Shown here piece after piece: positions 5,032 to 45,758 of a stretch of DNA of 62,953 nucleotides (position 1 is the stretch's first letter; each line of letters starts with the position of its first letter). This stretch comes from an uncultured Hyphomicrobiales bacterium (GTDB lineage: Bacteria; Pseudomonadota; Alphaproteobacteria; Rhizobiales; Beijerinckiaceae). Location of the stretch: contig CAIKAR010000093.1 in the NCBI GenBank assembly GCA_903825465.1, positions 1 to 62,953 of the forward strand. The letters run 5' to 3'. Under the pieces are notes generated by a model. That model did no database searches. It was not told the origin of the DNA and was given only the letters and a program-made list of their open reading frames with translations. The position numbers were made by a program, and so were the translations under genes.

Positions 5032-5252
5032 CGGGCGCCTCTCTCGGCAATTGAAATGGTTTTGGCCCGGCCTTGGCCAGACACAGGCATGTTAAACGAT
5101 GCGCGCGCCAATGGTAGCCCGCGTTTTGGAACAACTGTTGTGCCGCCCGGCCCACCGCCCGGGTAGCCCAGGTTTGGCGCCATCGCGGCCTCTGCTTGTC
5201 AACCATCGCCGCGTTTGAAATGGTGCCCCCACACGTTTTATGGAGGAAACCC

Positions 5253-30734: not shown

Positions 30735-32156
30735 CTAGGCGCGCTCGTTCGCGACGCGGCGGCGCGCGATCATCGGCATGCCGCCCTTTGGCCGCGTGGT
30801 GATGCGCTGCACCGGCTCGACCTTGTGCCCCGGCGCGGGATCAAACCGGTGGCCGCGCAATATGGAGGCCAGCAGGATGATTGCCTCGCGCATCGCGAAC
30901 CCCATGCCGATGCACACCCGAGGTCCCGCGCCGAATGGGATGTAGGCGTAGCGGTCGATTTTTTCGCGCTCCCCGGGCATGAAGCGCTCCGGAAGGAACT
31001 CGTCGGGCCGCTCCCACAACAGCTTGTGGCGCTGCACCACCCAGGGCGACACAATCACAGTGTCGCCGGCGCGGATCGCGCGGTCGCCGATCGTGTCGGG
31101 ACCGATCGCCTCGCGAGACAATGTCGCGGCTGGCGGATAAAGCCGCAGGGCTTCCTCGAACGTGGCCTGCGTTTTCGTCAGCTTGTCCACGGGCACGGGC
31201 GAGCGCAGCCCCTCCCTGAGAACGTCGTCGACTTCAACCTCGACCTCGCGCCGCCATTCCGGACGCTGGCTCAGAAGGTACAGCGACCATGTGAGCGCGG
31301 CCGCGGTGGTCTCGTGCCCGGCGCCGATGAACGTCAGGATGTTCGCGTTTATTTCGTGTTCGCCGAGGCCTTCGCCGGTTTGTGGATCGCGCGCGGCGAG
31401 CAACATGCCCAGGAGATCGCGCGTTGGCGCCGCGCCCTCCCGCGCCATCGAGGCGCGGCGCTCGCCGACGATCGCGGCGATCGCTTCGGCGAAAAAGGCG
31501 AGCTCGCGCTTGGTGTCGCGCTTGCCGATCCGCGGCGTCCAGGCGGGAAGTCCCATGGCGTCGAAGGGATGGATTTGACCGATGCTGTCGAAATAGCGCG
31601 ACATCGCGCGCGCGAAATCGGCGGGGTCGCGCTTCAAGCCGGCGGGGAAGATCGTGCGTTGCAGCACTTCGAGCGTGACCCGGGACATCTCGGCCGAAAC
31701 GTCAAGCCGCCGCCCGTCGCGCAACGGCGCCCAGCGCTCGTCGAGCCACGTCGCGCATTCGACCATCGCCGGCTCGAATGAATCGACGAGCCGCGGCGTG
31801 AACAACGGCGCCAGCGCGCGCCGCTGCGCCTTCCATTCGTCGCCTTCCGCGGTAAGCAGGCCGTGGCCTAGCCCGGGCTGCAGCACGCGCAGTTGCAGCG
31901 CGTCCTTCCGATAGTTCGCGACGTTGTCGACGAGCACGCGCTTGATCGCGGCGGGCTCGTTGAGGACGGCGACGCGGCCCATCACGCCCTCGGCTTGGAT
32001 GAACGGCAGCTCGAAACTCTGGCGCGACCAGGTCGACAGGGGATTGCGCCACATGCCGTAGAGAAACGCCAACGGACCAAGCGGACCCTCCGGGCGCGGC
32101 GGCGAGGGAGGGCGGAAAATCCGCGGAGGCGGAGTTTCGATGGGGCTCGCCGGCAT
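30735..32156 (-). CDS. Cytochrome P450
   Basis: A 473-residue P450 with all hallmarks: I-helix AGHETTAAALTW, K-helix EALRLYPPA (ExxR), PERF, and the haem loop FGAGPRVCIGMGFAM with the ligand cysteine near residue 415. No reductase is fused. The frame is open further upstream to 32243, but ATG 32156 begins the natural N-terminus. It is 100 bases downstream of the ABC permease gene on the same strand and may be the last gene of the large minus-strand operon, or have its own promoter. The substrate is unknown; similar bacterial P450s oxidise fatty acids, alkanes or xenobiotics. Confidence 0.92.
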   Translation of the reverse strand: MPASPIETPPPRIFRPPSPPRPEGPLGPLAFLYGMWRNPLSTWSRQSFELPFIQAEGVMGRVAVLNEPAAIKRVLVDNVANYRKDALQLRVLQPGLGHGLLTAEGDEWKAQRRALAPLFTPRLVDSFEPAMVECATWLDERWAPLRDGRRLDVSAEMSRVTLEVLQRTIFPAGLKRDPADFARAMSRYFDSIGQIHPFDAMGLPAWTPRIGKRDTKRELAFFAEAIAAIVGERRASMAREGAAPTRDLLGMLLAARDPQTGEGLGEHEINANILTFIGAGHETTAAALTWSLYLLSQRPEWRREVEVEVDDVLREGLRSPVPVDKLTKTQATFEEALRLYPPAATLSREAIGPDTIGDRAIRAGDTVIVSPWVVQRHKLLWERPDEFLPERFMPGEREKIDRYAYIPFGAGPRVCIGMGFAMREAIILLASILRGHRFDPAPGHKVEPVQRITTRPKGGMPMIARRRVANERA

Positions 32157-32258
32157 GATCGCTCCGATGGCGCGTCGCCGCCCGCCGCGGGAAGCGCCAA
32201 GGATGATACCGCTTTCGCGGCTTCCGCGCGATGTTTTCGTCAAGCGCGCAAGCGCTGT

Positions 32259-33014
32259 TTATGCCCGCCACCGCAGCAACCGCGCCTCCAGCAATCCGCT
32301 CGCCTGATTGATCGCGACGCCCAAAACCACCAGCGTGATCAACGGCACAAACACGTCGGCGGTTTTCAACTGCGCGGCGTAGCGGGTGATGGAGTAGCCG
32401 AGCCCGTCGTTCGAGCCGAACATTTCGCCGAGCACGACGCCATGCAGCGCGCGGCCCAGGCCGATGCGCGCGCCGGCGAGAATATGCGGAACCGACGCGG
32501 GCAACACCACCTTGAAAACCAGATCGCGCTTGCCGCCGCCAAACGCCAGCACGGCCCGCATGTGGCTGGGGTCGACGGCGTGAACGCCCGCCAGCGTGTT
32601 GACCGCGATGGAAACGAACGACAGCAGGAACGCCACCGTCACGACCGTCGCGAAACCGAAGCCGAGCCAGACGATCAGCAGCGGATAGAACGCGATCAGC
32701 GGCGAGGCGTAAACGAACCAGACGAACGGATCGACGGCGTATTCCACGAATCTGTTGAGCCCCATGGCGAGGCCGATGGCGACGCCGGCGACCATGGCCG
32801 CGCCGAAACCGACGGCGAATTCGACCGCGCTTGTCGCGAGGTCGGTCGCCAAATCGCCGCTCGCCCATTGCCGCGCGAAGGCCGCGGCGATGCGCGACGG
32901 GCTCGACACGACGACCGGGTTGACGAGGCCGTTCCGCGCGCAAATTTCCCACGCGGCGATCAGCAGCGCGAAGCCGAGGACGCCGAGAACGAGGCTTTGC
33001 GCGCGCTCGCTCAT
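32259..33014 (-). CDS. ABC transporter permease (NitT/SsuC type)
   Basis: A 251-residue inner-membrane protein with about six helices, for example LVLGVLGFALLIAAWEI, FAVGFGAAMVAGVAIGLAMG and the conserved EAA-type loop VLPASVPHILAGARIGLGRALHGVVLGEM that contacts the ATPase. ATG 33014 overlaps the stop of the other permease (ATGA). It belongs to the nitrate/sulfonate/taurine/pyrimidine-precursor importer group. It is the last transport gene of the minus-strand operon. Confidence 0.92.
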   Translation of the reverse strand: MSERAQSLVLGVLGFALLIAAWEICARNGLVNPVVVSSPSRIAAAFARQWASGDLATDLATSAVEFAVGFGAAMVAGVAIGLAMGLNRFVEYAVDPFVWFVYASPLIAFYPLLIVWLGFGFATVVTVAFLLSFVSIAVNTLAGVHAVDPSHMRAVLAFGGGKRDLVFKVVLPASVPHILAGARIGLGRALHGVVLGEMFGSNDGLGYSITRYAAQLKTADVFVPLITLVVLGVAINQASGLLEARLLRWRA

Positions 33015-33775
33015 GCGCGCGCGCGCCACGGGGCGAGCCGGTTTTCCAACACGCGCAGCAGGCCGACGCAAACGAAGCCGAAGCCCGCCACGACGCCCAC
33101 GAGGACGAAGATTTCCGCCGCGCGGCCCGCCGTGCTGTAGGTTTGAATCAAGCGTCCGACGCCAAGCGTCGACACGTACATTTCCGCCGCCACGACGCCG
33201 ACGATGGCGCGGCCCACGGCGAGCCGAAGCCCCGCCATGACGACTGGCAGCGCTCCCGGCAATATCGCCTTGGCGACGATCTGCGCGCGCGTCGCGCCGA
33301 AGGCCCGGCAGGCGCGTATCCAGGACTCCTGGGTTTCACGCACGCCGGTCGTCGTGTTGATGGCGATGGGCACGACGGCGGCGAGAAACGTCGTCACCGA
33401 CTTCGACGTCGAGCCGACGCCGAACCAGACCACCAGCAGCGGCACGAAGGCGATGAGCGGCGCCGTGTACATCGCCACGAAGAGGGGTTCGAAGAGATTG
33501 CGGACGATTTTGCTCAGCGCGAAGCCAAGGCCGAGAAGAACGCCGACGACTATCGCGGGCGCGAATCCCTCGGCGAATTCGCGCAGCGTGGCGAGGGCGT
33601 TGGCGCCGAGTTCGCCCGAGGCCGCGAGTTCGCGTGCGGACGCCGCGATTTCCGTTGGATAGGACACAAGATCGGAGCGGATGATTTCGTTCGCGCCGAC
33701 GATCTGCCAGACAACGAGAAACGCCGCGACGGCGGCGGAGCCGACAAGCCAGCGCGGATTGACGAACGCGCCCAT
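33011..33775 (-). CDS. ABC transporter permease (NitT/SsuC type)
   Basis: A 254-residue permease with similar layout to its neighbour: five to six helices (VGSAAVAAFLVVWQIVG, FAPAIVVGVLLGLGFALS, FVPLLVVWFGVG) and the coupling loop AILPGALPVVMAGLRLAVGRAIVGVVAAEM. It begins one base after the ATPase stop (TGA-C-ATG). Two distinct permease subunits rather than a homodimer make this a heteromeric importer. Confidence 0.92.
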   Translation of the reverse strand: MGAFVNPRWLVGSAAVAAFLVVWQIVGANEIIRSDLVSYPTEIAASARELAASGELGANALATLREFAEGFAPAIVVGVLLGLGFALSKIVRNLFEPLFVAMYTAPLIAFVPLLVVWFGVGSTSKSVTTFLAAVVPIAINTTTGVRETQESWIRACRAFGATRAQIVAKAILPGALPVVMAGLRLAVGRAIVGVVAAEMYVSTLGVGRLIQTYSTAGRAAEIFVLVGVVAGFGFVCVGLLRVLENRLAPWRARA

Positions 33776-33776
33776 G

Positions 33777-34580
33777 TCACGCGCCTCCTTCGCCGCGCGC
33801 CCAGGAGCCCGATTGCCTCACCTGCTCTTCGAGCAGGTTCCACAAGGTCTCGCGGTATTCGTTGAATTTCGCGGATGTGCGGATGGAAAGCCCGCGCGGG
33901 CGCGGCAAATCAACCTTGATTTGCTGGACGACCCGCCCGGGCGACGCGCTCATCACCACAATGCGGTCGGCGAGATAAATCGCCTCGTCGATGTCGTGCG
34001 TGACGAAAAGGATGGTCTTCCGGTCGCGCTCCCAGATGTGCAGCAACTCCGAGCCCATGACTTGCCTGATTTGCGCGTCGAGCGCGCCGAAGGGCTCGTC
34101 CATCAGCAAAACCTCGGGATCGACGCTGAGCGCGCGCGCGATGCCAACGCGCTGCCTCATGCCGCCCGAGAGTTGATGCGGGTAATGCCTTTCGAAGGCG
34201 CGCAAGCCCACCATGTCGATGTTTTTACGCGCGATGTCGGTCCGCTTCGCCGCGGCCACGCCCTGCATTTCGAGGCCCAACTCGACGTTCTTGAGCACGT
34301 TGCGCCACGGCAGCAGCGCGAAATCCTGAAACACCAGCGCGCGGTCGGGGCCGGGCGCCGCGACCGGCTGGCCGTTGAGCGACACGGCGCCGCGCGTCGG
34401 GCGCAACAGCGCGGCGATCAACATCAGCATGGTGCTTTTGCCGCAGCCGCTGGGGCCGACGATGGTGACGAACTCGCCCTTTTCAACCGCGAGATCCACG
34501 TCGCTCAGCGCGAGGAAAGGCGCGCCGCCCCGGGCGGCCGGATATTCGAGGCGAAGGCCCTGGACGACGAGCTGCGTCAC
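33777..34580 (-). CDS. ABC transporter ATPase (NitT/SsuB type)
   Basis: A protein of about 267 residues with Walker A GPSGCGKST, Q-loop VFQDFALLPW, signature LSGGMRQRVGIARAL, Walker B VLLMDEPFGALD and switch histidine in LFVTHDIDEA. GTG 34580 overlaps the substrate-binding gene's stop (GTGA) and is the natural start; the frame is open further upstream only as a shadow. It powers import through the two permeases that follow. Confidence 0.94.
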   Translation of the reverse strand: MTQLVVQGLRLEYPAARGGAPFLALSDVDLAVEKGEFVTIVGPSGCGKSTMLMLIAALLRPTRGAVSLNGQPVAAPGPDRALVFQDFALLPWRNVLKNVELGLEMQGVAAAKRTDIARKNIDMVGLRAFERHYPHQLSGGMRQRVGIARALSVDPEVLLMDEPFGALDAQIRQVMGSELLHIWERDRKTILFVTHDIDEAIYLADRIVVMSASPGRVVQQIKVDLPRPRGLSIRTSAKFNEYRETLWNLLEEQVRQSGSWARGEGGA

Positions 34581-35569
34581 GCCGACCACCCGTCGAAGGT
34601 CTTTATGAAGCGGTCGTCGATCAATTTGTCGTTTGGCATGGCCGATGTCGCGGCGCCGCCGGCGATCATGATCTTCCAGTAGACATCCATGGCGGCGGAG
34701 GGCAGTTCGCCGCGCTCGTTGTAGCCGCCGATGACTTCGCGATAGGCCCTGTCGGCGTACTTGTCGGGGAACTTGAGCGCCTTCGACAACAACCGCGCCG
34801 TCTCCTCCGGGTTGGCGCGCGCGTAGCGGATCGCCTGCACGTGCGCGCGCAACAGCGTCTTCAAGGCGTTGGGATTGGCGTCGATGTATTTCCGCGACGC
34901 GAGAAACGCGTGCTTCGGCCATTCGCGCGCGACGTCGTCGGCCTGCGTCCCCAGCATGCGCAGCCCGGCGTCCTCCGCCACCCATTTGTCGGGAGGCGAC
35001 ATGATCGCGCAATCAAGCCGGCCGGACTTCAACGCCTGCATGCGCCCGGGCGACGGGCCGGACTGAATGATTTTCACATCCTTCGCGGGATCGAGGCCGT
35101 TTTTGACGAGCGCGTAGCGCGTGAGCTCGTCGGTGAGCGAGCCAAAGGTCGACACGCCCAGAAGCTTGCCCTTCAAATCGGCCCACGATTTTATCGAGGG
35201 CTGCGCGGCCCAGGCGAAGTCCGCCTGATAAAAGCCGGCGTAGAAGCCGATGACGGGCTGCTCCGCGGCGATCAGGTTCAGCAAGCCGTCGAGCGACTGG
35301 CACGACACGTCCACGGAGCCCGCGGCGAGCGCTTGCGCCACCTCCGCGTCGCCGCGGAACGCGACCATTTCAATGTCGAGCCCGTTCGCCTTCCAGGTCT
35401 TTTCGGCGGCCACGTAGATGGGCAGGAAGCTCGAACCAGGCACCGGCAGGCCCAAGCGGATCTTGTTTGTTTCGAGCGGGCCGATCGCGGCGCGCGCGCG
35501 CGCGCTCACAAGCGAGGCGCTCGCGCCCGCGATGGCCGAACGGCGGGTGACGCGGCCGGCCGCCGTCAT
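34577..35569 (-). CDS. ABC transporter substrate-binding protein (NMT1/THI5-like, SsuA type)
   Basis: A 330-residue receptor. The N-terminus TRRSAIAGASASLVSARARA looks like a twin-arginine signal. Mature motifs of the group: KIRLGLPVPGSSFLPIYVAAEKTWKANGLDIEMV, AGSVDVSCQSLDGLLNLIA, LKGKLLGVSTFGSLTDELTRYAL and a C-terminal YREVIGGYNERGELPSAAMDVYWKI. Members bind nitrate, sulfonates, taurine, pyrimidine precursors or aromatic acids. It is translated just before its ATPase (GTGA overlap), and follows two M24-type genes, so the importer is probably dedicated to the compound broken down by this operon. Confidence 0.92.
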   Translation of the reverse strand: MTAAGRVTRRSAIAGASASLVSARARAAIGPLETNKIRLGLPVPGSSFLPIYVAAEKTWKANGLDIEMVAFRGDAEVAQALAAGSVDVSCQSLDGLLNLIAAEQPVIGFYAGFYQADFAWAAQPSIKSWADLKGKLLGVSTFGSLTDELTRYALVKNGLDPAKDVKIIQSGPSPGRMQALKSGRLDCAIMSPPDKWVAEDAGLRMLGTQADDVAREWPKHAFLASRKYIDANPNALKTLLRAHVQAIRYARANPEETARLLSKALKFPDKYADRAYREVIGGYNERGELPSAAMDVYWKIMIAGGAATSAMPNDKLIDDRFIKTFDGWSA

Positions 35570-35597
35570 GGAAAGGCGCTCGCGATTCGATTCCGAT

Positions 35598-36767
35598 TTA
35601 CAGGCATTCGATCAGTCCCGGGGCGCCGGTGAGGCTTTCGACGCTTGCCCCGCGCACAAGCAGCGTTTCGGCGAGCGCGACGCCGAGACCGCCTTCGTGG
35701 CCAAGCGCGCGCAGCGCCACCGCGGCGCTGTCCGCTAGGGTTTCGGCGCTTCCCGCCGCGATCAGCGGGTATTCGTTCTCGTCGAGGCCGACGCCGTTGC
35801 CGAAGCCATAGCCCGCGGCGCTCGCGGCGAGAGCGCCGCCACCAAGCGCCGATTGCGCGGCCAAAGCGATCCCGCCGCCCGTCGCGCCGGCGCGCGTCGC
35901 CGCGCGCATCGCGTTCGTCGCGCGTTCGCCGCGCGCGAAAAGCCAGCGCACTTCGTCGGAGGCGCGCCCAACCACGAACGTCCGCGCGCCCTCCGCCCAA
36001 TAACGTTGCGCTTCAACAGCGAGATAAACGAGCGCGGAGTCGCCGCTCTTCAACACGCGGTCGTCGGCCGGCCGCAGCGACTGGCCCGCTTGTTCGCCGC
36101 TCGCGGCCATGACGCGCACGTCCTCGGCGGCGCGGACGCGGCAAGCGCGGTCGAGTTCCGCCGTGACTTCCCGCATCGTTCGGCCCGGCTTTATCGAGGC
36201 CGCGCATTCTTCGAACGCCTTGCGAACGATGGCGCCCGTCGCTCGGATCGCGGCGATTTCGCATTCGTCCTTGCGGGCGCGCATCGCGTTCAATTCGCCG
36301 GTTCGCGACCGCGTCCGCAAGCCGGGCAGCGCGGCGGCGATTTCGCTCCAGGCCTTCATCGGCAGCAATTCCTCGACGCCCGCGAGTCCGACGCGCGCCG
36401 CGGTTAGTCCGCGCTCCTCGATCAGCGCGGCCAGCGATTTCGGCAGGTTGCCATATGGCCTGACATCGTCCACCCAGGTGAGTGTTTTCGCCGCGGGCAC
36501 GTCGCGCAGGCCCACCGCGAGCAGTAGCGTCGGCTCGCCCTCGCGCGGAACCAAAGCGAGCGCGGCGCGCGTGCGCGGCAGAAAATTGCTGAACCACGCG
36601 ACCGCGCCGTAGCGCTCGACATCTCCGTAAAAGAGCCAGGCGTCGTCGCCCGCCGCCGCGATGGCCTTTTGAACGCGCGCGAATCGCTCGCGGTAGTTGG
36701 CCGGCGGCAGCAGGTCGCGGTCCCAATAAAGTCCGCCGCGCTTGAGAACGGGGTGCATGGTGCGCAT
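35598..36767 (-). CDS. M24-fold (creatinase/aminopeptidase) protein lacking metal ligands, copy 1
   Basis: A 389-residue pita-bread-fold protein with an N-terminal creatinase domain (YRERFARVQKAIAAAGDDAWLFYGD) and a C-terminal M24 domain. In M24 peptidases the first metal aspartates lie in (I/V)D-x-G and SD-x-T-R-T-F; here they read SALVYLAVEA and AEGARTF (residues 244-264). The usual G-H-G is GYGFGNGVG (319-327). The metal site is therefore missing, as in metal-free creatinase, or the protein is not catalytic. It follows copy 2 after one base and precedes the ABC substrate-binding gene. Confidence 0.82.
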   Translation of the reverse strand: MRTMHPVLKRGGLYWDRDLLPPANYRERFARVQKAIAAAGDDAWLFYGDVERYGAVAWFSNFLPRTRAALALVPREGEPTLLLAVGLRDVPAAKTLTWVDDVRPYGNLPKSLAALIEERGLTAARVGLAGVEELLPMKAWSEIAAALPGLRTRSRTGELNAMRARKDECEIAAIRATGAIVRKAFEECAASIKPGRTMREVTAELDRACRVRAAEDVRVMAASGEQAGQSLRPADDRVLKSGDSALVYLAVEAQRYWAEGARTFVVGRASDEVRWLFARGERATNAMRAATRAGATGGGIALAAQSALGGGALAASAAGYGFGNGVGLDENEYPLIAAGSAETLADSAAVALRALGHEGGLGVALAETLLVRGASVESLTGAPGLIECL

Positions 36768-36768
36768 G

Positions 36769-37911
36769 TCAGGCCGCCTTCCAGAACAGGCGCCGCGGCG
36801 TTTTCGTCAACACGCGCGGACCTGCGGCGGCGATGGCGACGGTGTCGCCCAGCATCATGTAGCCGGTCTCGGGGATATATTGGTTGGGGTGTATGATCAT
36901 GGTCATGTCGGCGGCGAGCGTCGGGCTCGCGCTCTCCGTCACGTCGTAGGGCACGACGCCGCCGAAGCCCAGTCCATGGCCGCGCGTGCGCATATAGGGC
37001 TGGCGGCAATATTCTCCGTAGCCTTGCGCCGAAATCACCTCGTTGACGGCCTTGGCGATGCCGCTGCTCGGCTGGCCAGCGCGCGCGGCGGCGAAGCCGG
37101 CGTCCTGCGCGGCGATCAGCATGTCGTATTTCGCGCGCTGCAAATCCGAGGGCTCGCCAAGGATGAACGTGCGGCAGAGCTGCGCGAAATAACCCCGGTA
37201 ACAGGGCGTGATTTCGCCGACGATGAGATCGCCGCGTTCGAGCCTGCGGTTGGTTGGGGCGCGGATCGCCCGATTGTGCGGCCCGGCGCCGATCAATCCG
37301 TAATTGTCGTCGGAGCCCAGCGATTGCATCGCCGCCTCGACTTCCGCCGCGAGTTCGTACTCCCACATGCCGACGGCGGCTTTTTCACACAACGCGGCGA
37401 AGCCCGCGTCCGCGATGGCGGCGGCGTGTTCAACGCGGGCGAGCTCGACCGGCGTGCGCGAAGCGGCGAGCGATGTCGCCAGTGTTTCCGCGTCGAGGGG
37501 TTCCCCGCCGAGCGCGTCGAAAAGCGCGCGCGCGAAAACAACGGTCATGTCCTCGCGGCCGATCAGAGCGAGCGGGCCGGATCCGGCTTTCGCGCGCGAA
37601 GCGATGGCCGCCGCGAATGCGGAAGGCGCCACGGCGACCATGTCGGCGACGCCGACGGCTTGCTCTTTGGCGCGCGGAAGATCCCATCGCGGCGTCACGA
37701 TCAGCGTCGGCGCGCCTTCGGCGGGCAACACCAGGGCGGCGGGGCCAAGCGCTTTGAAATCAGTCAGCCACATCAGCTGATTCATGCGCAGCATGTAGTG
37801 CTGGCCGCCGAAATAAACGACGAGCGTCCCGACGCCTTTGCCGCGCATCGCCGCTTGCGCGCGGGCGCGGCGTTCGGCGATGTCGGCTTCCACGTTCAAC
37901 GCCGGACTCAT
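36769..37911 (-). CDS. M24-fold creatinase-like protein, copy 2
   Basis: A 380-residue protein of the same fold. Around residues 208-250, GAGPHNRAIRAPTNRRLERGDLI followed by EITPCYRGYFAQLCRTF aligns well with the creatinase segment holding its catalytic histidine and differs from metal peptidases, which have D-x-G and SD-x-T-R-T-F there. The RGHGLGFGG (310-318) histidine is kept, but the later glutamates read HPNQY and GDTVA. A metal-free amidino- or amidohydrolase like creatinase is the best guess. Its ATG overlaps the hyuB stop (ATGA). Substrate unknown. Confidence 0.82.
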   Translation of the reverse strand: MSPALNVEADIAERRARAQAAMRGKGVGTLVVYFGGQHYMLRMNQLMWLTDFKALGPAALVLPAEGAPTLIVTPRWDLPRAKEQAVGVADMVAVAPSAFAAAIASRAKAGSGPLALIGREDMTVVFARALFDALGGEPLDAETLATSLAASRTPVELARVEHAAAIADAGFAALCEKAAVGMWEYELAAEVEAAMQSLGSDDNYGLIGAGPHNRAIRAPTNRRLERGDLIVGEITPCYRGYFAQLCRTFILGEPSDLQRAKYDMLIAAQDAGFAAARAGQPSSGIAKAVNEVISAQGYGEYCRQPYMRTRGHGLGFGGVVPYDVTESASPTLAADMTMIIHPNQYIPETGYMMLGDTVAIAAAGPRVLTKTPRRLFWKAA

Positions 37912-39671
37912 GCCTTCGCTCCCCTCGCCGCGCGCATTTTTCCGCGCAGCGATTCCGTCGCGGCGGCGTCGAGCGCGCCCGTGCGCGCGTCGATCGCGAC
38001 GCCATAGTCGGCGGCCGCGGATTCGATCGTAACCAATTCCTCCGCCACGTCGAGCGCGACCCATTCGGGGGGCCGTTCCAGCGGGTCTCCCCAGCCGCCG
38101 CCGCCCGCCGTCGCCACCATCACGCTCGTGCCGGGCGCGCATTGCGTCCGCACGGGGTCGAAGGGCTCGCGCCCGTCGTCGCCTGGCTTGCGAATGTAGT
38201 TGACCGAGGCTCGGCCGTCGCCCCCGCCGGCGATGCCCCATGGCGGGCACTGCCGCCGCCCGGCGTTGCTGAGGCTCCATTTGCCTTCGAGCAGGTTGGT
38301 CATCTCGGTCATGATTCCAAGGCCGCCGCGGAATTTTCCGGGACCGCCGGAGTTCTCCCGCAGCGCACGGCGGTCGACGCGCACCGGCGCCTTTAGTTCT
38401 ATGGTCTCGACGGGCGAGTTGCGCACGTCGCCCTGGCACACGGAAACGCAGGTGGAAACGCCGTCTTCATAGGGGCGCCCGCCCCAGCCGCCGCCTTCGA
38501 TGGTTTGCGACACGTAGGGTTTTCCGGTGGCGGAATCGACGCCGTAAAACGTCAGCGAGCCCCCGAGGTTGCCCATGTGGGCGGCGGGGATCGTGTTGGG
38601 CAACGCGGGGGCGAGCGCTTTCAAAATGGTGTCGACGACGGTGGGCAGGCCGCGGCTCCACGCGGCCATGGGCGCGGGGTAGCGCGCCATCATGAAGTTG
38701 CCTTCCTGTATCGCGACCTTCAACGCGCGAAAACTGCCTTCGTTGACGTTGTCGAGGGGGCCCGTGAGGCCCTTGTAGGCGATATAGGCGCCGGCCAGCG
38801 TCCGGCCGTTGATGCCGCTTTTGCGCTGCATCGAGCAGCCCGTGAGATCGATGGTCGTTTCGTCGCCATCTATGATCACCTTCACGCGAATGGGGATGAC
38901 ATCGTTCTTGTCGGCGCCGTCGGCGTCGAGGAAGGAGGCGGCTTCGTAGACGCCGTCGGGAATCGACTTCACGATTCGCCGGCATTTGCGCTCGGTCTCG
39001 TCGAAAATCCGCTCAATGGCGGCGTGGATGGTGTCGCTTCCGTAACGCGTGAACAATTCGTCGAAGCGCCGCGTCGCCATCTCGCAGGAGGCGATTTGCG
39101 AGCGCAGGTCGCCCATCGACGCCTCCTGAAAGCGGATATTGTCGCGGATGATGCCCAGCACCTTCTCGTCGGGAACGCCGGCTTCGACGATCTTGATCTG
39201 GTTGAGTTGCAAGCCTTCCATCCACGGGTCGCTGACAAGCCCCGGCGCGCTCGTGCCAGTGCTCATGCCGCCGATGTCGGCCCAATGCGCGCGCACGATG
39301 GCGAAGCCTTCGAGCGCGCCGTTGAAGAAGCAAGGAGTGTAAACGCAGACGTTGTTGAGATGCTGGCCCGCGACGCGCTGGTGGTTCATGATCAGCACGT
39401 CGCCGGGCCTGAAGCCGCCCTTGCCGTAGCGCGCGACCGCGTCCTTGACGACGACGCCGAGGTCGGCGACGAAATGCGAAACGCCGCCGATGTTCTGGCA
39501 GATCAGGCGTCCTTCGGCGTCGAGCAGGGCGCAGCAATAGTCCTGCACCTCGTAGATCATCATGTTGTAGGAAGTCCGCTGCAAGTCCGTCGCCATGTCG
39601 GCGGCGATCGCGGGCAGCGCGTTGCGCAGCACTTCGAGCGTGACGGGGTCGAGCTTGATGTCGGCGGTCAT
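37908..39671 (-). CDS. hyuB: Hydantoinase B / 5-oxoprolinase subunit B
   Basis: A 587-residue HyuB protein beginning LDPVTLEVLRNALPAIAADMATDLQRTSYN, with DAEGRLICQN, SHFVADLGVVVKDAV, PGDVLIMNHQRVAGQHLNNVCVYTP and a C-terminal glycine-rich stretch (TSVMVATAGGGGWGDPLERPPEWV). With HyuA it forms an ATP-dependent amidohydrolase that opens hydantoins, oxoproline or related lactams and amides. The ATG overlaps the hyuA stop (ATGA); the upstream open frame is a shadow. Confidence 0.94.
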   Translation of the reverse strand: MTADIKLDPVTLEVLRNALPAIAADMATDLQRTSYNMMIYEVQDYCCALLDAEGRLICQNIGGVSHFVADLGVVVKDAVARYGKGGFRPGDVLIMNHQRVAGQHLNNVCVYTPCFFNGALEGFAIVRAHWADIGGMSTGTSAPGLVSDPWMEGLQLNQIKIVEAGVPDEKVLGIIRDNIRFQEASMGDLRSQIASCEMATRRFDELFTRYGSDTIHAAIERIFDETERKCRRIVKSIPDGVYEAASFLDADGADKNDVIPIRVKVIIDGDETTIDLTGCSMQRKSGINGRTLAGAYIAYKGLTGPLDNVNEGSFRALKVAIQEGNFMMARYPAPMAAWSRGLPTVVDTILKALAPALPNTIPAAHMGNLGGSLTFYGVDSATGKPYVSQTIEGGGWGGRPYEDGVSTCVSVCQGDVRNSPVETIELKAPVRVDRRALRENSGGPGKFRGGLGIMTEMTNLLEGKWSLSNAGRRQCPPWGIAGGGDGRASVNYIRKPGDDGREPFDPVRTQCAPGTSVMVATAGGGGWGDPLERPPEWVALDVAEELVTIESAAADYGVAIDARTGALDAAATESLRGKMRAARGAKA

Positions 39672-41719
39672 GACGCGTTGATCCGGATGACCATGTCGCC
39701 GCTCGGCGCGACTTCGAGGCGGTCGCCGGGATACAGCACGGTGGTGGATGCGTATTCGGCGATCACCGCGGGGCCGTCGACGACCTGGCCGGCCCGCAGC
39801 GATTCCCGCTCGTAAACGGCGCAACGCGCGGGCTTCTCCGGATCGTCGAACACAACGTCCCGGTATTCCGAAGGCGAGCCAGGCGCGCCCGCGGCTATCG
39901 CGGGAAACGACGACCGCTCGCGCCGCCCCGTCGCGGTCAATCGCAGATTGACGATTTCGACGGGTTCGTCCACGGCCTGATGGCCGAACCGCTTTGAATG
40001 CGCGCCATCGAAGGCGGCGCGGATGAGGCCGCGGTCGCGCGCGGCGATCAACGCCGTTTCCACCGGCGTTTGAATGGGGAACTCCTGCCCGGCGTAGCGC
40101 ATGTCGAGATATGGTTGAAACGCCATTTGCCCGGGCGTCGCGCCCTCGCTTTCCAGCAGCGCGCGGGCTTCGCCGACCATTTCGTCGAACACGCGTTCGA
40201 TGTCCGAAAACTCCGCTTCCTCCAGCCGCTTGTAGTAGGTCCGGACATAGTCGTGGCGGTTGTCGGCGAGCAGCATGCCGAGCGCCGAATAATGGCCGGG
40301 CGCGCGCGGAACAATCAACCGCGGCACATGCAATTCGCGCGCGATTTCGGCCGCGTGAGCCGGACCCGCGCCGCCAAACGCGACCATGGCGAAATCGCGG
40401 GGATCGTGGCCGCGCCCGACCGAGACAGACCGCACCGCCAGCGACATTTCAGCGACGGCGATGCGCAGAACGCCGAGCGCCGCCTCGTTGACCGACATGC
40501 CAAGCGGCGCCGCGATCACGCGTTCGATGGCGGCGCGCGCGGCGTTCGCGTCGAGGCGCATTTCGCCGCCCAGAAAGCGCCCCGCGCCGATGCGCCCCAG
40601 CGCGACGTTGGCGTCGGTGACGGTGGGTTCGGTTCCGCCCTGTCCGTAGCACACGGGGCCGGGGTGCCCGCCGGCGCTGCGCGGCCCGACTTTCAGCGCG
40701 CCATCCTCGTCGAGCCAGGCGACGCTGCCGCCGCCCGCGCCGACTTCGACGATATCGACGACGGGCAACATCACGGGATGGCCGTGGCCAACGCCGCCGA
40801 CAAGATAGCCCTGCGCGATGTCGGGCTTGTTGTCGCGAACGAGGCTCACCTTCGCCGTTGTGCCGCCCATGTCGAAGGCGATCACGTCGGCGACGCCGAG
40901 CCCGCGCGCCGTTTCAGCCGCGGCGATGACGCCGCCGACGGGTCCGGATTCCATCGTCGCCACGGGGACGCGCCTCGCCATTTCCGGAGACATGCCGCCG
41001 CCGTTCGACTGCATGATGAGCAATTTTCCGCGGAAGCCGAAGCCCTTCAGCAGGGATTCGAGATCGCCGAGATACTTCGCGACTTTCGGTCCGACGTAGG
41101 CGTTCAGCACGGTCGTCGATGTGCGCTCGTATTCGCGGTATTCGCGCAGGATTTCGTGGCTGAGCGACACGCTTGTTTCAGGCGCGGCGCGGCGCAGAAT
41201 GTCGCCGACGCGCCGTTCGTGCTCCGGATTCGCCCACGAGTGAATGAAACAGACGGCGGTCGCCTCGATTCCCAGTTCGCGCAATTTCAACGCGACGCCC
41301 GCCGCGCCGGCTTCGTCGAGCGGCGTCACCACTTCGCCCGCGGCGTTCAGCCTTTCGAGAATTTCGAACGTGTGGCGCCGCGCCACATAGGGCTCTGGCC
41401 GCTTGAACAGGAAGTTATAGGACTCGGGCCGGCTGCCGCGGCCAATGGCGTAGACATCGCGCATGCCCGTCGTCGTCAGCAGCGCCACGCGCGCGCCGGT
41501 GCGCTCGATGGCCGTGTTGATGGCGACGGTGGAGCCGTGGATGAACGTGTCGGCGGCCGCGATGGCGAGCCCGCTTTTGACCAGCGTTTCGCGTATGCCG
41601 ACGGAGAGATCGTACGGCGTCGTGGAACTCTTCGCCTGCCGGATTTCGCCGGTCGCGAAATCGAAGGCGACCAGATCGGTGAAGGTCCCGCCGATATCCA
41701 GCGCGATGACCAGCGACAT
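39668..41719 (-). CDS. hyuA: Hydantoinase A / 5-oxoprolinase subunit A (ATPase)
   Basis: A 683-residue ASKHA-fold ATPase subunit. It begins ALDIGGTFTDLVAFD (phosphate loop), then STVAINTAIERTGARVALLTT, AVCFIHSWANPEHE, IMQSNGGGMSPEMARRVPVATMESGPVGGVIAA and a second phosphate site DVIAFDMGGTTAKVSLV. It hydrolyses ATP to drive opening of a cyclic amide together with HyuB. Relatives act on N-methylhydantoin, 5-oxoproline and, in divergent members, acetophenone carboxylation; the substrate cannot be told. The gene lies 81 bases downstream of a Bug receptor. Confidence 0.95.
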   Translation of the reverse strand: MSLVIALDIGGTFTDLVAFDFATGEIRQAKSSTTPYDLSVGIRETLVKSGLAIAAADTFIHGSTVAINTAIERTGARVALLTTTGMRDVYAIGRGSRPESYNFLFKRPEPYVARRHTFEILERLNAAGEVVTPLDEAGAAGVALKLRELGIEATAVCFIHSWANPEHERRVGDILRRAAPETSVSLSHEILREYREYERTSTTVLNAYVGPKVAKYLGDLESLLKGFGFRGKLLIMQSNGGGMSPEMARRVPVATMESGPVGGVIAAAETARGLGVADVIAFDMGGTTAKVSLVRDNKPDIAQGYLVGGVGHGHPVMLPVVDIVEVGAGGGSVAWLDEDGALKVGPRSAGGHPGPVCYGQGGTEPTVTDANVALGRIGAGRFLGGEMRLDANAARAAIERVIAAPLGMSVNEAALGVLRIAVAEMSLAVRSVSVGRGHDPRDFAMVAFGGAGPAHAAEIARELHVPRLIVPRAPGHYSALGMLLADNRHDYVRTYYKRLEEAEFSDIERVFDEMVGEARALLESEGATPGQMAFQPYLDMRYAGQEFPIQTPVETALIAARDRGLIRAAFDGAHSKRFGHQAVDEPVEIVNLRLTATGRRERSSFPAIAAGAPGSPSEYRDVVFDDPEKPARCAVYERESLRAGQVVDGPAVIAEYASTTVLYPGDRLEVAPSGDMVIRINAS

Positions 41720-41800
41720 TGACTTCCACCCATTGAATCGCGCCTAAACGCGGCGAAGCCTCCTCTAACCCGCGGCCGCCGGCGCTGGCAAGGCGCGGGA

Positions 41801-42820
41801 TCAACGGGTTTCCACCGCCGCGACGAGCGCCCGCACGCGGGCGAGGGTCTCCGGGCTCGCCGCGTAAATATCCCTCAACAAGTCGTCCATTCCGGCGCCG
41901 GCCATGGGCGAGGACTCCAACCGCGATTTCCCGGCGTCCACGAGGAAGGCGGGGTCGGCCGTCATGTCTGAAAAAGCCCGCCGCAAAGCCGCCAGGCGCT
42001 CCGCCGGGATGGATGGCGGAGCCGCGAAAGGACGCCCGGCGGCGACGGGCGCGAGCACGACCTTCAAGATCGCGCGCGCCTCCGCGTCGGGCGCGAGATC
42101 GCCGATGGTTGGCACGCCAGGCAGGTCGGGATTGGCGGCGAGGCCGACGTAGACGATAGGTTTGACGAAGCCGCTGGCGATCCAGTCGACGTGGGCGACG
42201 CGCATGCTCGAATAATTCTGGCATATCAACTCGACTTCGCCGCGTTCCAGCGCCAGCGCCACCTGGCTGCCGTCGGCGTAGCCGGAAACGAATTTCAGGT
42301 CCGCGCCCAGCAATCGGTTCAGCAACATGGGATAAAGATAGGTCGTCGTGCCGGGCGCCGTCGATCCCACGACGAGGCGCCTGCCGCGCAAATCGTTCCA
42401 CGAAGCCACGCCCGACGCGCGCGAGGCGGCGCAAACGACGTCTTCCCGGCTCATGCTGCCGATCCAGCCGAAGCGGCGCGCGTCGAATTTCGCCGTGCCG
42501 GCGCCGAACAGCGGCTCGGTCAACATGGCGTTGCTGAAGACGCCGAGGAATAATCCGTCCTTCGGCGCGACGTTGAAGAGCTGGTTCGCGGCGACGATGC
42601 CGCCGCCGCCCGGCGTGTTCACGACGACGACATTTGGATTGCCCGGAACAAAGCGGCCGAAGTGGCGCGCCAGAAGCCGCGCGCTCAGGTCGTAGCCGCC
42701 GCCCGGGCCGGTGCCGACGGAGATTTCGATGGTCTTGCCGCGGTAGAAATCCGACGCGTTTTGAGCGCGCGCGGACGGGGCGGCGAAAAAGCACAACGCT
42801 GCGAAAAAAGCGCGAAGCAT
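41801..42820 (-). CDS. Tripartite tricarboxylate transporter (Bug family) substrate-binding protein
   Basis: A 339-residue receptor with signal peptide (MLRAFFAALCFFAAPSARA) and mature start NASDFYRGKTIEISVGTGPGGGYDLSARLLAR, then NVVVVNTPGGGGIVAANQLF and FVSGYADGSQVALALERGE. Its ATG shares a base with the stop of the Pht5-like gene (TGATG). It is therefore a second periplasmic receptor in the same operon as a full ABC importer; the two may catch different forms of the substrate. No TctAB membrane genes are present. Confidence 0.9.
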   Translation of the reverse strand: MLRAFFAALCFFAAPSARAQNASDFYRGKTIEISVGTGPGGGYDLSARLLARHFGRFVPGNPNVVVVNTPGGGGIVAANQLFNVAPKDGLFLGVFSNAMLTEPLFGAGTAKFDARRFGWIGSMSREDVVCAASRASGVASWNDLRGRRLVVGSTAPGTTTYLYPMLLNRLLGADLKFVSGYADGSQVALALERGEVELICQNYSSMRVAHVDWIASGFVKPIVYVGLAANPDLPGVPTIGDLAPDAEARAILKVVLAPVAAGRPFAAPPSIPAERLAALRRAFSDMTADPAFLVDAGKSRLESSPMAGAGMDDLLRDIYAASPETLARVRALVAAVETR

Positions 42821-43818
42821 CAGGTGTATTTGACCATGGGCGCTCCGAAGGTGGGAGCGAACAGGTCTTCGATTTTCGGTTTGAAGCCGATCATGCCCTG
42901 TTCATGCAAATAGGTCACCGCGGCTTCGAGGCTGGGCCGGTTGGATTCGACGCCGTAGGGCCAGGGATCGCCGCCGAAAATCCGGTCGGCCTCTTCCGCG
43001 TGGTCGGGCAGCCACGGCAACATGCAGCGCAGCGCGCCGAGGCTGCGCATATGCTTCGCGGCGATTTCCTTGGCGCGGAACAGCCCATCGTAAAGGCTTG
43101 TGGCGACGAATGGATGGCGTTCGTGGAAGTCGCGGCGGATAGCCACGAGATGCATGATGGGAAAAAGCTTGGTGCGCTTGTAGTAGTCCTGCTCGACCTC
43201 CTTGTAGTTTGGAAACAGGCGGACGATGTCCGGGTTGGCGTGGAGCGAATCCGGCAGCAGTCCGCCGATCATCGCGTCGATGTCGCCGTCCTCCAACTGC
43301 TGGCTGAGCGACTTGTCGCGGCGGTTGACGATGTTCACCGGCTTCAACAGCGCGGGCACGCTCGGGTGGCCGTGGGAGCCGGCGGAATTCGCGGCGGCCT
43401 GCACCCATGTCACGCCCGACAAGTCGACGTTGTATTCGTGCTGTAGAAAGCCGCGAATCCACACCGCCGCGCTCATGGTGTAAAGCGGCACGCCGATCTT
43501 GCGGCCTTCCAGGTCCTTCGGCGCCTTGACGCCCGAGCGCTTGTTGACGACGATGAAGCCGTGGCGGAACACGCGGGACACGAAGACGGGAATCGCGACA
43601 AACGGCGAGTTCCCCTTGCAATGATTCATGATGACCTCGGCGCTCGACATTTCGCAGGCGTCGAACTCCAGCCCGCCCGCCATGCGGTCGAAAGTCTGCC
43701 GCTGGTCCTCCATGACGATGAAATTAAGGTCGATTCCATCGAGCCGGACCTCGCCGGTGAGCAAAGGCACGACGCGGTCGTAGGCGGCGCAGGCGAACGA
43801 CATTTTCAGTGGCGACAT
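42820..43818 (-). CDS. 4,5-dihydroxyphthalate decarboxylase-like / periplasmic-binding-fold protein
   Basis: A 332-residue protein without signal peptide. The segments FDACEMSSAEVIMNHCKG, PFVAIPVFVSRVFRHGFIVVNKRSG and VPLYTMSAAVWIRGFLQHEYNVDL match the group annotated as 4,5-dihydroxyphthalate decarboxylase (Pht5), which shares the type II periplasmic-binding fold. Lack of a signal peptide agrees with a cytoplasmic enzyme. If the annotation is right it removes a carboxyl group from an aromatic diol acid. The start is 14 bases after the racemase-like gene. Confidence 0.8.
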   Translation of the reverse strand: MSPLKMSFACAAYDRVVPLLTGEVRLDGIDLNFIVMEDQRQTFDRMAGGLEFDACEMSSAEVIMNHCKGNSPFVAIPVFVSRVFRHGFIVVNKRSGVKAPKDLEGRKIGVPLYTMSAAVWIRGFLQHEYNVDLSGVTWVQAAANSAGSHGHPSVPALLKPVNIVNRRDKSLSQQLEDGDIDAMIGGLLPDSLHANPDIVRLFPNYKEVEQDYYKRTKLFPIMHLVAIRRDFHERHPFVATSLYDGLFRAKEIAAKHMRSLGALRCMLPWLPDHAEEADRIFGGDPWPYGVESNRPSLEAAVTYLHEQGMIGFKPKIEDLFAPTFGAPMVKYT

Positions 43819-43832
43819 CGCGAAAAATCCGC

Positions 43833-44603
43833 TCAGAGCTTCTTGTTGAAATCGTCGAGCGACAGCGCCGCGCGGGGATAGGCGATCGCGCTTTGCGACA
43901 TCTTGTTGCGCACGCACATCTCCGCGAAGGCGATGGAAACCGCCTTGGTGTTGAGCACCTGCACCCCCGTCGCGGCCGCGAGGTCGTCGGGGTTGACCAC
44001 ATAGGGGATCAGCGCGCCGCCGAGCGGCAAGATGATTTCCGCGCCGCGCGACACCATGTCCTTGATAAGTTTCACGGTCGTCTCGAAAATCTCGTCTTTG
44101 CGTTTTGTCAGGTCGACATAAACGCCGATGGGCATCATGTCGCTGACGAATTGTTCGAGCCCGTGCGAGCGCAGGATGCGCCGCGTGTGGGGAATGTGCG
44201 AGGCAAGCGGCACCGTCACGCCGACCTTGTCGGCGAGCGTCAGCGCGGCGTGCATCGTTGTCCGCAGCGGGCCAATCACCGGGATTTTCACCGCGAGCCT
44301 GCCGCCGTCGACGCCGGGGTCGAAGGTGTTGCTGGAGATCGCGGCGTCGTAGCCGTTCTGTTCGGCCCAGAATATCTTGCGCACGATGGCGGGCGTTTCC
44401 ATCATATGGTGCAGTCCGTTCAGCACGCTCTGTCCGCCGATGGCGTTGTAAAGCGTCGCGCCCTCGAAGTTTTCGGGAAAGCCGATCTCGATCGTCGTGC
44501 CGGGCGAGGCGTAGGAGTTGAGCTGCGCGGTGATCTTGCCGACTTCGTAGGCGGGGCCGGACGTGTCCGTCCTCGGCGCGTGGTTGATGAACAATATGCG
44601 CAT
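43833..44603 (-). CDS. Asp/Glu (hydantoin) racemase-fold protein lacking both catalytic cysteines
   Basis: A 256-residue protein of the Asp/Glu/hydantoin racemase superfamily, opening MRILFINHAPRTDTSGPAYEVGKI. In true racemases one cysteine lies in the A-C-F-x-D-P-G region and another in L-G-C-A-G. Here these read AISSNTFDPG (residues 88-97) and ILPLGGAL (191-198), so both cysteines are absent. Related two-cysteine-less or one-cysteine enzymes exist (for example arylmalonate decarboxylase has one), so another chemistry or a binding role is possible. This is the first gene of the minus-strand operon. Confidence 0.8.
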   Translation of the reverse strand: MRILFINHAPRTDTSGPAYEVGKITAQLNSYASPGTTIEIGFPENFEGATLYNAIGGQSVLNGLHHMMETPAIVRKIFWAEQNGYDAAISSNTFDPGVDGGRLAVKIPVIGPLRTTMHAALTLADKVGVTVPLASHIPHTRRILRSHGLEQFVSDMMPIGVYVDLTKRKDEIFETTVKLIKDMVSRGAEIILPLGGALIPYVVNPDDLAAATGVQVLNTKAVSIAFAEMCVRNKMSQSAIAYPRAALSLDDFNKKL

Positions 44604-44741
44604 GGCGTTTCCCTAGTGGATTTGTTGGCGCCACGATTTCAGAAACGCGGGCCATGGGCAAGGCCGCGCGGAAATTGACAGGCGGCGGCCGCGCGATATG
44701 ACTTGCGGCGGTCGCGAATCCGCGGGTGGTGGGAGGCGGGC

Positions 44742-45758
44742 GTGAATATTCGGATGCTCGCCGCCGTCGCCTGTCTCGCCGCGCCGCCCGCCCTCGCCGA
44801 CGACGACTTCTTCAAGGGCAAGACGATCACCATCGTCAACAGCACCGGCAACGGCGGCAGCTATTTCAACATCGCGCAGGCCGTCGCGCGCCACATGCCG
44901 CGGTTCATTCCCGGCCATCCCGCGATGGCGGTCAAAAGCATGCCCGGCGGCGGCAACGTGCTGGCGACGAGCTTCATGTATCAAAACGCCCCGCGGGACG
45001 GCACGTACATCGCCACGATCAACAATTCGATTCCACTCAACCAGGCGATCGCTCCGCGCGGCGCGCGCTACGACGCGGACAAGTTCAACTGGCTGGGTTC
45101 GACGGGAACCTACAATTCCGTCGCCTACGTGTGGCGGACCGGGGGCGTGGCGTCGGTCGGCGACGTGTTTATGCGCGAGGTCGTGCTCGGCGGCACGGGC
45201 GTCGGGTCCAGCGTCGTGATCTACCCTTCGGTGATGAACAATCTGCTTGGCGCCAAATTCAAGATCGTGCTCGGCTACAACACCACCACGGAAATCGACC
45301 TCGCCATGGAGCGCGGCGAAGTGCAGGCGCGCACGGGCAGCTATTCCGGCCTGCTCGACGACCATCCCGACTGGGTGCGCGACGGGAAGGTGAACGTCGT
45401 GTTGCAAATCGGCGGCGCGCGGGATCCTGCGCTGAAGAATGTGCCATTGCTGACCGAGCTCGCGCGCAACGTGGAAGAGGAGCGCATTCTGCGGCTTGTG
45501 TCATCGCCGATAGCGCTGGGCCGGCCCTATCTGGCGCCGCCGGAAACGCCGCCCGAGCGCGTCGCCATCTTGCGCGAGGCCTTCGCGGCGACCATGCTGG
45601 ATCGGGAATTCCGCGCCGACATGGCGCGCATGGGCCACGAAATCCAGCCATCGAGCGCGGAGGAGGTGGCGCGCATCGTCGCCGACACGGTCAACGCGCC
45701 GGCGGACATTGTGGCGCGCGCCCGCGAGGCGATGGGCGGCGTCGCCGTCGGCCCATGA
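44742..45758 (+). CDS. Tripartite tricarboxylate transporter (Bug family) substrate-binding protein
   Basis: A 338-residue receptor. GTG 44742 has GGAGG five bases upstream and is the likely start; ATG 44754 is an alternative. A short signal (RMLAAVACLAAPPALA) is followed by DDDFFKGKTITIVNSTGNGGSYFNIAQAVAR, AMAVKSMPGGGNVLATSFMYQ and LGYNTTTEIDLAMERGEVQARTG. The opening NSTGNGGSYF differs from the usual G-x-G-G-x-Y-D, so ligand contacts may differ. It is divergent from the operon headed by the racemase-like gene (about 140 bases apart), so both could be co-regulated. Confidence 0.86.
   Translation: MNIRMLAAVACLAAPPALADDDFFKGKTITIVNSTGNGGSYFNIAQAVARHMPRFIPGHPAMAVKSMPGGGNVLATSFMYQNAPRDGTYIATINNSIPLNQAIAPRGARYDADKFNWLGSTGTYNSVAYVWRTGGVASVGDVFMREVVLGGTGVGSSVVIYPSVMNNLLGAKFKIVLGYNTTTEIDLAMERGEVQARTGSYSGLLDDHPDWVRDGKVNVVLQIGGARDPALKNVPLLTELARNVEEERILRLVSSPIALGRPYLAPPETPPERVAILREAFAATMLDREFRADMARMGHEIQPSSAEEVARIVADTVNAPADIVARAREAMGGVAVGP

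Follow-up and report, generated by a model that had tools for sequence, protein, structure and literature searches.

Twelve genes that run in one direction along the minus strand of a single contig raise the question of whether they encode one catabolic pathway or, failing that, which of them belong together. The genes occupy positions 44603-30735 of contig CAIKAR010000093.1 from an uncultured Hyphomicrobiales bacterium (Beijerinckiaceae; assembly GCA_903825465.1, 3.9 Mb in 142 contigs), of which a stretch of 62,953 nucleotides, referred to here as the window (contig C93 in our numbering), was analyzed. An initial annotation, made from the letters of the DNA alone, had read the genes as an operon for uptake and stepwise breakdown of a small cyclic amide, urea, guanidine or aromatic compound. 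Judging from sequence comparisons, the noteworthy unit does not comprise all twelve genes; it is a widespread core formed by the hydantoinase-type subunits HyuA and HyuB (HyuAB) and a degenerate pair of M24-family proteins, M24a and M24b (M24ab), with which a Pht5-like protein and an ATP-binding cassette (ABC) importer recur. We propose, with moderate confidence, that the locus serves the uptake and catabolism of a small ring compound containing nitrogen and is organized around HyuA-HyuB-M24a-M24b, in which M24ab would function as a metal-free hydrolytic heterodimer.

All twelve open reading frames were located where they had been annotated, in the order racemase-fold protein (RAC), Pht5-like protein, TctC-like receptor, HyuA, HyuB, M24a, M24b, NMT1/SsuA receptor, ABC ATPase, permease, permease and cytochrome P450. 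The tight joining of eleven of them was likewise confirmed. In transcription order, the gaps from RAC to P450 are 14, -1 (TGATG), 81, -4, -4, 1, 28, -4 (GTGA), 1, -4 and 102 bases, so that the first eleven genes (44603-32259) are spaced by -4 to 81 bases, and the P450, which had been placed about 100 bases on, begins 102 bases past the last permease. A same-strand run of twelve genes is not rare in itself, because a run of ten plus-strand genes comes after it; as far as the sequence can indicate, the real evidence for an operon is the overlap of start and stop codons together with conservation elsewhere, not the strand run. A scan for promoters and terminators gave no excess over chance (one promoter-like site against 1.6 expected, and 17 terminator-like sites against 14.3) and therefore neither splits nor joins the operon.

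To define which genes travel together, patterns derived from an alignment of the M24a family were searched against the genome_contigs collection, where 225 stretches matched and 195 encoded a relative; the best 80 were kept, and their stop-to-stop frames were searched with profiles of the window genes. In 76 of these 80 loci, the gene immediately downstream of M24a encodes an M24-type partner, the exceptions being L136, in which a TctC gene stands in between, L145, and L151 and L188, whose sequences end 55 and 42 bases past M24a. HyuA and HyuB were both present in 40 loci and neither in 37, with HyuB immediately upstream of M24a in 29; ABC permeases were found in 24 loci, a Pht5-like gene in 8, RAC in 1 and the P450 in 0. 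Seven loci from named hosts (Neorhizobium galegae, N. vignae, N. tomejilense, N. petrolearium, Rhizobium terrae, Rhizobium sp. CF080 and Chelativorans petroleitrophicus) display the order LysR(-), hyuA, hyuB, M24a, M24b, MmgE/PrpD, solute-binding protein (SBP), ATPase, permease, permease, amidohydrolase, and in five of the seven the genes after LysR form a single run with gaps below 160 bases. The existing annotation of the N. galegae plasmid matches this order, except that the place of MmgE/PrpD is taken by 'hypothetical proteins'.

Closer to the window, all four M24a matches in its own genome share strand and contig with a HyuB gene, and three adjoin it. Contig C34 carries HyuA-HyuB-SBP-SBP-ATPase-permease-permease-Pht5-M24a-M24b, and the M24a encoded there is 33% identical to that of the window with identical site motifs. 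In the sister genome G049, eleven of the twelve genes occur in unchanged order; a bicupin gene has been inserted after Pht5, and there is no P450 within its 20-kb stretch. Other kin carry HyuA-HyuB-M24a-M24b with bicupin and TctC genes and, in some cases, an amidohydrolase. M24b relatives of at least 46% identity were present in seven same-genus genomes besides its own (150 searched), and in its own genome only among 385 drawn from the class. The neighborhood is thus conserved for the core, often with the importer and sometimes with a Pht5-like gene. Since these genes recur together in other genomes and in further operons of this one, a role in taking up a small ring compound and opening it with ATP appears reasonable, although the conserved order does not take in RAC and the P450, and a single fixed pathway of all twelve genes does not follow. 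It could be argued that the genes came together mainly by island accumulation in a receptor-rich genus and that the cluster is not one pathway. The strikingly large set of 132 TctC receptor-family matches (a few of them under the cut-off) and the 11 HyuB (Hydantoinase_B) matches in 3.9 Mb are consistent with such a process, as is the failure of RAC and the P450 to be conserved with the core. However, the core order and its overlaps are kept in distant bacteria, and the retention of eleven genes in G049 also argues against it, so that we consider this explanation unlikely.

The link between HyuAB and M24ab is widespread but loose, and several points weigh against our proposal insofar as it implies a fixed partnership. 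The 80 loci include near-copies, among them seven rhizobial loci, and are not independent. Of the 40 loci in which HyuA, HyuB or both are missing, 27 have less than 9 kb of sequence on at least one side, but 13 with long flanks still lack a complete pair, and several loci without HyuAB carry aconitase-type, UbiD or acyl-ligase genes instead; M24ab therefore need not act with HyuAB. A quick tree built from 61 M24a proteins requires 13 changes of the HyuAB label, a number inflated by the scoring of short-flank loci as lacking HyuAB, which again indicates a loose linkage; HyuAB-linked loci fall on either side of the midpoint root, which separates the rhizobial clade from the window, L133, L140 and L149. 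Where a single run comprises all four genes (28 loci), the correlation between distance matrices is 0.98 (HyuA-HyuB), 0.85 (M24a-M24b) and 0.72-0.82 (across pairs), values that include shared ancestry. The control for linkage consists of the HyuB count of the own genome alone, from which we calculate a chance of about 6% that a random 21-kb stretch touches a HyuB gene. Given the variety of neighbors described below, M24ab appears to serve several pathways, and a fixed M24ab-HyuAB reaction is correspondingly less likely. Finally, the invariance of M24a residues reported below is partly selected for Q244, C246 and positions 350-355, because these lie inside the search patterns (E233, H312, H341 and N343 lie outside).

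These same data bear on the converse idea that HyuAB and M24ab are not separate enzymes at all. In its favor are the ATGA overlaps of hyuA with hyuB and of hyuB with M24a, the single base between M24a and M24b, the position of HyuB directly upstream of M24a in more than a third of the loci (29/80), and the description of hydantoinases, in the available part of PMC5214803, as two-gene hydAB clusters, which makes two fixed extra genes unusual. The many loci that have M24ab without HyuAB, including the 13 with long flanks, speak against it, as do L160, L163, L178, L181 and contig C34, where HyuAB and M24ab are parted by other genes or by a different order, and it appears quite improbable.

Both M24a and M24b contain an M24 domain (PF00557) that spans their catalytic half. 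A model of M24a was of high quality (predicted local distance difference test score, pLDDT, 95.1) and its structural matches are M24 proteins; a single-sequence fold of M24a was of no use (pLDDT 34.9). Neither protein retains the five ligands of an M24 metallopeptidase (Asp, Asp, His, Glu, Glu), which we take to be D209, D220, H284, E313 and E327 in the numbering of Pyrococcus prolidase, with their places taken from the alignment. M24a keeps one of the five (H312) and has E233, Q244, H341 and G355 at the other four places, and M24b keeps none, in agreement with the metal-free pair of the initial annotation. E233, Q244, C246, H312, H341 and G355 of M24a are invariant across 58 aligned members. 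The presence of M24 domains in both proteins, whose closest sequence matches are prolidases and aminopeptidases P, would fit an ordinary dipeptidase-type hydrolase that cuts an amino-acid-like product of HyuAB, but the defining metal site has been lost from both subunits and other invariant residues stand there in M24a, so we regard this activity as rather improbable. A bolder version of our own proposal is that M24a and M24b constitute a previously unrecognized obligate heterodimer, found in several phyla, with an invariant Glu-Gln-Cys-His-His set for the two-metal site and metal-free, possibly Cys/His, chemistry, working within a four-protein HyuAB ring-opening machine; this version is tentative, and we hold it to be possible but doubtful.

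HyuA and HyuB carry the Hydantoinase_A and Hydantoinase_B domains on adjacent genes, as members of this family do, and HyuA has both phosphate-binding motifs, DxGGT..D and DxGGT, in the form DIGGTFTD and DMGGT. The portion of PMC8453981 available to us describes these motifs for the A subunit, states that caprolactamase requires ATP and bicarbonate, and proposes routes in which the lactim form is phosphorylated or carboxylated in CapA and then hydrolyzed in CapB. Against the equivalog models for caprolactamase CapAB (cut-off 1000 bits each), HyuA scored 513.5 and HyuB 260.3 bits; because HyuA falls far below the cut-off and its best solved-structure matches are an N-methylhydantoinase and a 5-oxoprolinase, these comparisons do not predict its substrate. 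That HyuAB is instead a relative of ketone or aromatic carboxylases and the pathway begins by carboxylation, which would fit the Pht5-like, UbiD-like and amidohydrolase neighbors and the acetophenone carboxylase subunits that NCBIfam lists for both HyuA and HyuB, is very unlikely, given that HyuA scores higher as a caprolactamase than as an acetophenone carboxylase (513 vs 334 bits, NCBIfam) and higher against the N-methylhydantoinase than against carboxylase structures (483 vs 327 bits), and that no small gamma-subunit gene was seen in the operon, where no search for one was made.

In the ring-opening pathway that we favor, the importer would take up a small nitrogen-containing ring compound, HyuA would phosphorylate a cyclic amide, imide or ureide on its lactim oxygen at the expense of ATP, and the opening of the ring would be completed by HyuB, by analogy with the HyuAB family. 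M24a and M24b would pair as a heterodimer, with E233, Q244, C246, H312 and H341 of M24a presumably forming an active site in place of the two-metal site. Like creatinase and ectoine hydrolase, which share the fold, M24a may dispense with the usual metals in hydrolyzing a C-N bond, whether of an amidine, ureido, guanidino or amide group, and M24b would contribute to structure or to contacts with the substrate. Removal of a carboxylate is the probable role of the Pht5-like protein. This protein aligns with the solved structure 9jp7 over residues 1-323 of 332 (E 9.5e-61), the copy on C34 matches the same structure (E 2e-45), and the N-terminus of the window protein, read by eye, does not have the look of a signal peptide. 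A Pht5 gene stands directly before M24a in L160, L181 and the C34 operon, after M24b on the opposite strand in L197, and further away in L161, L166, L173 and L194, and is therefore a recurrent partner, unlike RAC and the P450. No phthalate genes were noticed in the operon.

RAC and the P450 are probably lineage-specific additions, and both were rejected as parts of the core. Close relatives of RAC (49% or more) were limited to one genus of 51 plus one genome at 56%, and the single M24a locus that contains RAC is that of the nearest relative; the P450 was absent from all 80 loci. At E <= 1e-20, RAC relatives occur in 18 of 101 genomes (its own plus relatives), all of that one genus, and at E <= 1e-30 in 2 of 289 class genomes, namely its own and the distant one. 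The protein had been annotated as a 'cysteine-less' racemase-like protein, which holds for the catalytic residues but not for the whole chain. All 30 distinct paralogues compared have N92/T93 and G196 in the two catalytic Cys places, so RAC is not a two-cysteine racemase, and its sole, unusual cysteine, C230, lies away from these places and is invariant in the 30 same-genus paralogues. For comparison, the catalytic pair of allantoin racemase is Cys79/Cys184, and two Cys are the norm of the superfamily, with a Thr/Cys variant known, according to the part of PMC12661438 at hand. Up to 8 RAC-family matches per genome were found (E <= 1e-20), some only about 30% identical and often beside TctC genes. 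In L028, L029 and L054, RAC has as neighbors a quinolinate phosphoribosyltransferase gene, named by Pfam for the L028 copy, and a bicupin gene, possibly indicating a quinolinate-type link.

The two receptors attributed to the set are present, and a further, divergent TctC-like receptor adjoins the operon start, as one also does in the sister operon L039. With 132 matches in the genome, a TctC gene beside a catabolic gene means little, and TctC linkage was discarded as evidence. Arylmalonate decarboxylase genes are likewise described near tripartite tricarboxylate transporter (TTT), tripartite ATP-independent periplasmic (TRAP) and ABC transporters in the available part of PMC4996985. Gene labels (Table 1) derive from Pfam, NCBIfam and PDB sequence searches, and start codons are choices: the gene caller favored a later start for the P450 (32072) and an earlier one for the ATPase (34589), and the Pht5-like protein possibly starts at 43803.

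Table 1. Features of the operon and the adjoining receptor gene (positions in the window)
Feature	Position	Strand	Basis or remark
RAC, racemase-fold protein	43833..44603	-	PF01177 Asp/Glu racemase
Pht5-like protein, 4,5-dihydroxyphthalate decarboxylase family	42820..43818	-	weak NMT1 match; 9jp7 homology
TctC-like solute receptor	41801..42820	-	26.2 bits, below Pfam gathering cut-off of 27; TGATG overlap with Pht5-like stop
HyuA, ATP-binding subunit, hydantoinase/oxoprolinase family	39668..41719	-	Hydantoinase_A; DIGGTFTD and DMGGT motifs
HyuB, second subunit	37908..39671	-	Hydantoinase_B; ATGA overlap with hyuA
M24a, pita-bread protein	36769..37911	-	Peptidase_M24; ATGA overlap with hyuB
M24b, M24-family partner	35598..36767	-	Peptidase_M24; one base after M24a
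NMT1/SsuA-type ABC solute-binding protein (SBP)	34577..35569	-	Pfam
ABC ATPase	33777..34580	-	GTGA overlap with receptor gene
ABC permease 1	33011..33775	-	Pfam
ABC permease 2	32259..33014	-	ATGA overlap with permease 1
Cytochrome P450	30735..32156	-	Pfam; 102 bases downstream
Divergent TctC-like receptor by operon start	44703..45758	+	31.8 bits, above Pfam cut-off of 27

Neighbor clusters within 4.5 kb upstream to 6.5 kb downstream, each named by Pfam from one or two members, comprised Amidohydro_2 (18 loci), MmgE/PrpD (16), aconitase-type (5) and UbiD (3), and molybdenum-hydroxylase large subunits formed clusters of 3 plus 2 loci in the same span. Among the unlabelled neighbors in the same run (70 of 87), the commonest Pfam families were Aconitase (8) and AMP-binding (5). 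M24a-M24b occurs with aconitase-type genes and no complete HyuAB in L150, L164, L175 and L179, which suggests a second pathway for the M24 pair; in L134, aconitase-type genes also stand beside the pair, with HyuB present and HyuA not. Large subunits of the xanthine dehydrogenase type near the pair in L128, L135, L158, L168 and L197 hint that the substrates could be nitrogen heterocycles that have been hydroxylated. A creatinine-type pathway was also considered and may still apply: genes for creatinine deaminase or creatininase were not noticed in the labelled neighborhoods, where no model search was aimed at them. A bicupin gene at 5220-6395 (+) of the window, far from the operon, is a homologue of the one in or beside the sister HyuAB-M24ab operons. 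On the N. galegae VafX2 plasmid (L198, 9913-13798), the annotation seems to break HyuB and the M24 genes into pieces, reflecting either sequencing error or decay of the operon.

Among titles and abstracts of open-licence papers, we found none describing HyuAB with an M24 pair. The parts of two reports available to us touch on related genes: haloarchaeal hyuA, hyuB and pepQ are consecutively numbered and were raised under silver stress in overlapping, not identical, conditions (PMC10694973), and N-methylhydantoinase B and Xaa-Pro dipeptidase genes of N. galegae are listed by strain, without function and with non-adjacent locus tags (PMC4417242). In the one haloarchaeal locus that we examined, on a Natrialba plasmid, there was no HyuAB within 7 kb of the M24 gene. 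The labels 'aminopeptidase P family' and 'M24 family metallopeptidase', used for example in the N. galegae record, also cover a family that lacks the standard M24 metal ligands. If our proposal is correct, the M24 pair would add a new example of peptidases that have been converted to a different enzyme, in this instance a two-gene heterodimer. To our knowledge, few members of the large HyuAB family have known substrates, and the fixed partner pair, the linked importers and the copies in Neorhizobium, Rhizobium and Chelativorans would make this HyuAB branch testable by knockout and growth screens.

Compared with known systems, the HyuAB of the window has both subunits and the phosphate motifs in common with the ATP-dependent hydantoinases, caprolactamases and 5-oxoprolinases (HyuAB, CapAB), but its A and B subunits score at about one half and one quarter, respectively, of the caprolactamase cut-offs, and a tandem M24 pair follows it, in contrast to the two-gene clusters described in the available part of PMC5214803. 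The Pht5-like protein is homologous to 4,5-dihydroxyphthalate decarboxylase (Pht5) over the length of the solved member, and RAC shares the PF01177 fold with Asp/Glu, hydantoin and allantoin racemases and with arylmalonate decarboxylases, of whose catalytic cysteines it has neither. Ectoine genes were not noticed near the operon, although no search for them was made, and the M24 family is not mentioned in the available part of PMC5924519, on ectoine. Prolidase and aminopeptidase P are nearest to M24ab by sequence, yet four of their five metal ligands are lost in M24a and all five in M24b. Ectoine hydrolase (DoeA/EutD) opens a cyclic amidine on the M24 fold that it has in common with M24a and gives the top VIA-align Z score (38.3, tied with others), but M24a and M24b reach only 49.3 and 38 bits against its equivalog model TIGR02993 (cut-off 613 bits). 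Creatinase, which employs a catalytic His and a guanidine-binding Glu pair, shares the fold of M24a at about 20% identity and is a homodimer encoded by a single gene, whereas M24a and M24b are the products of two.

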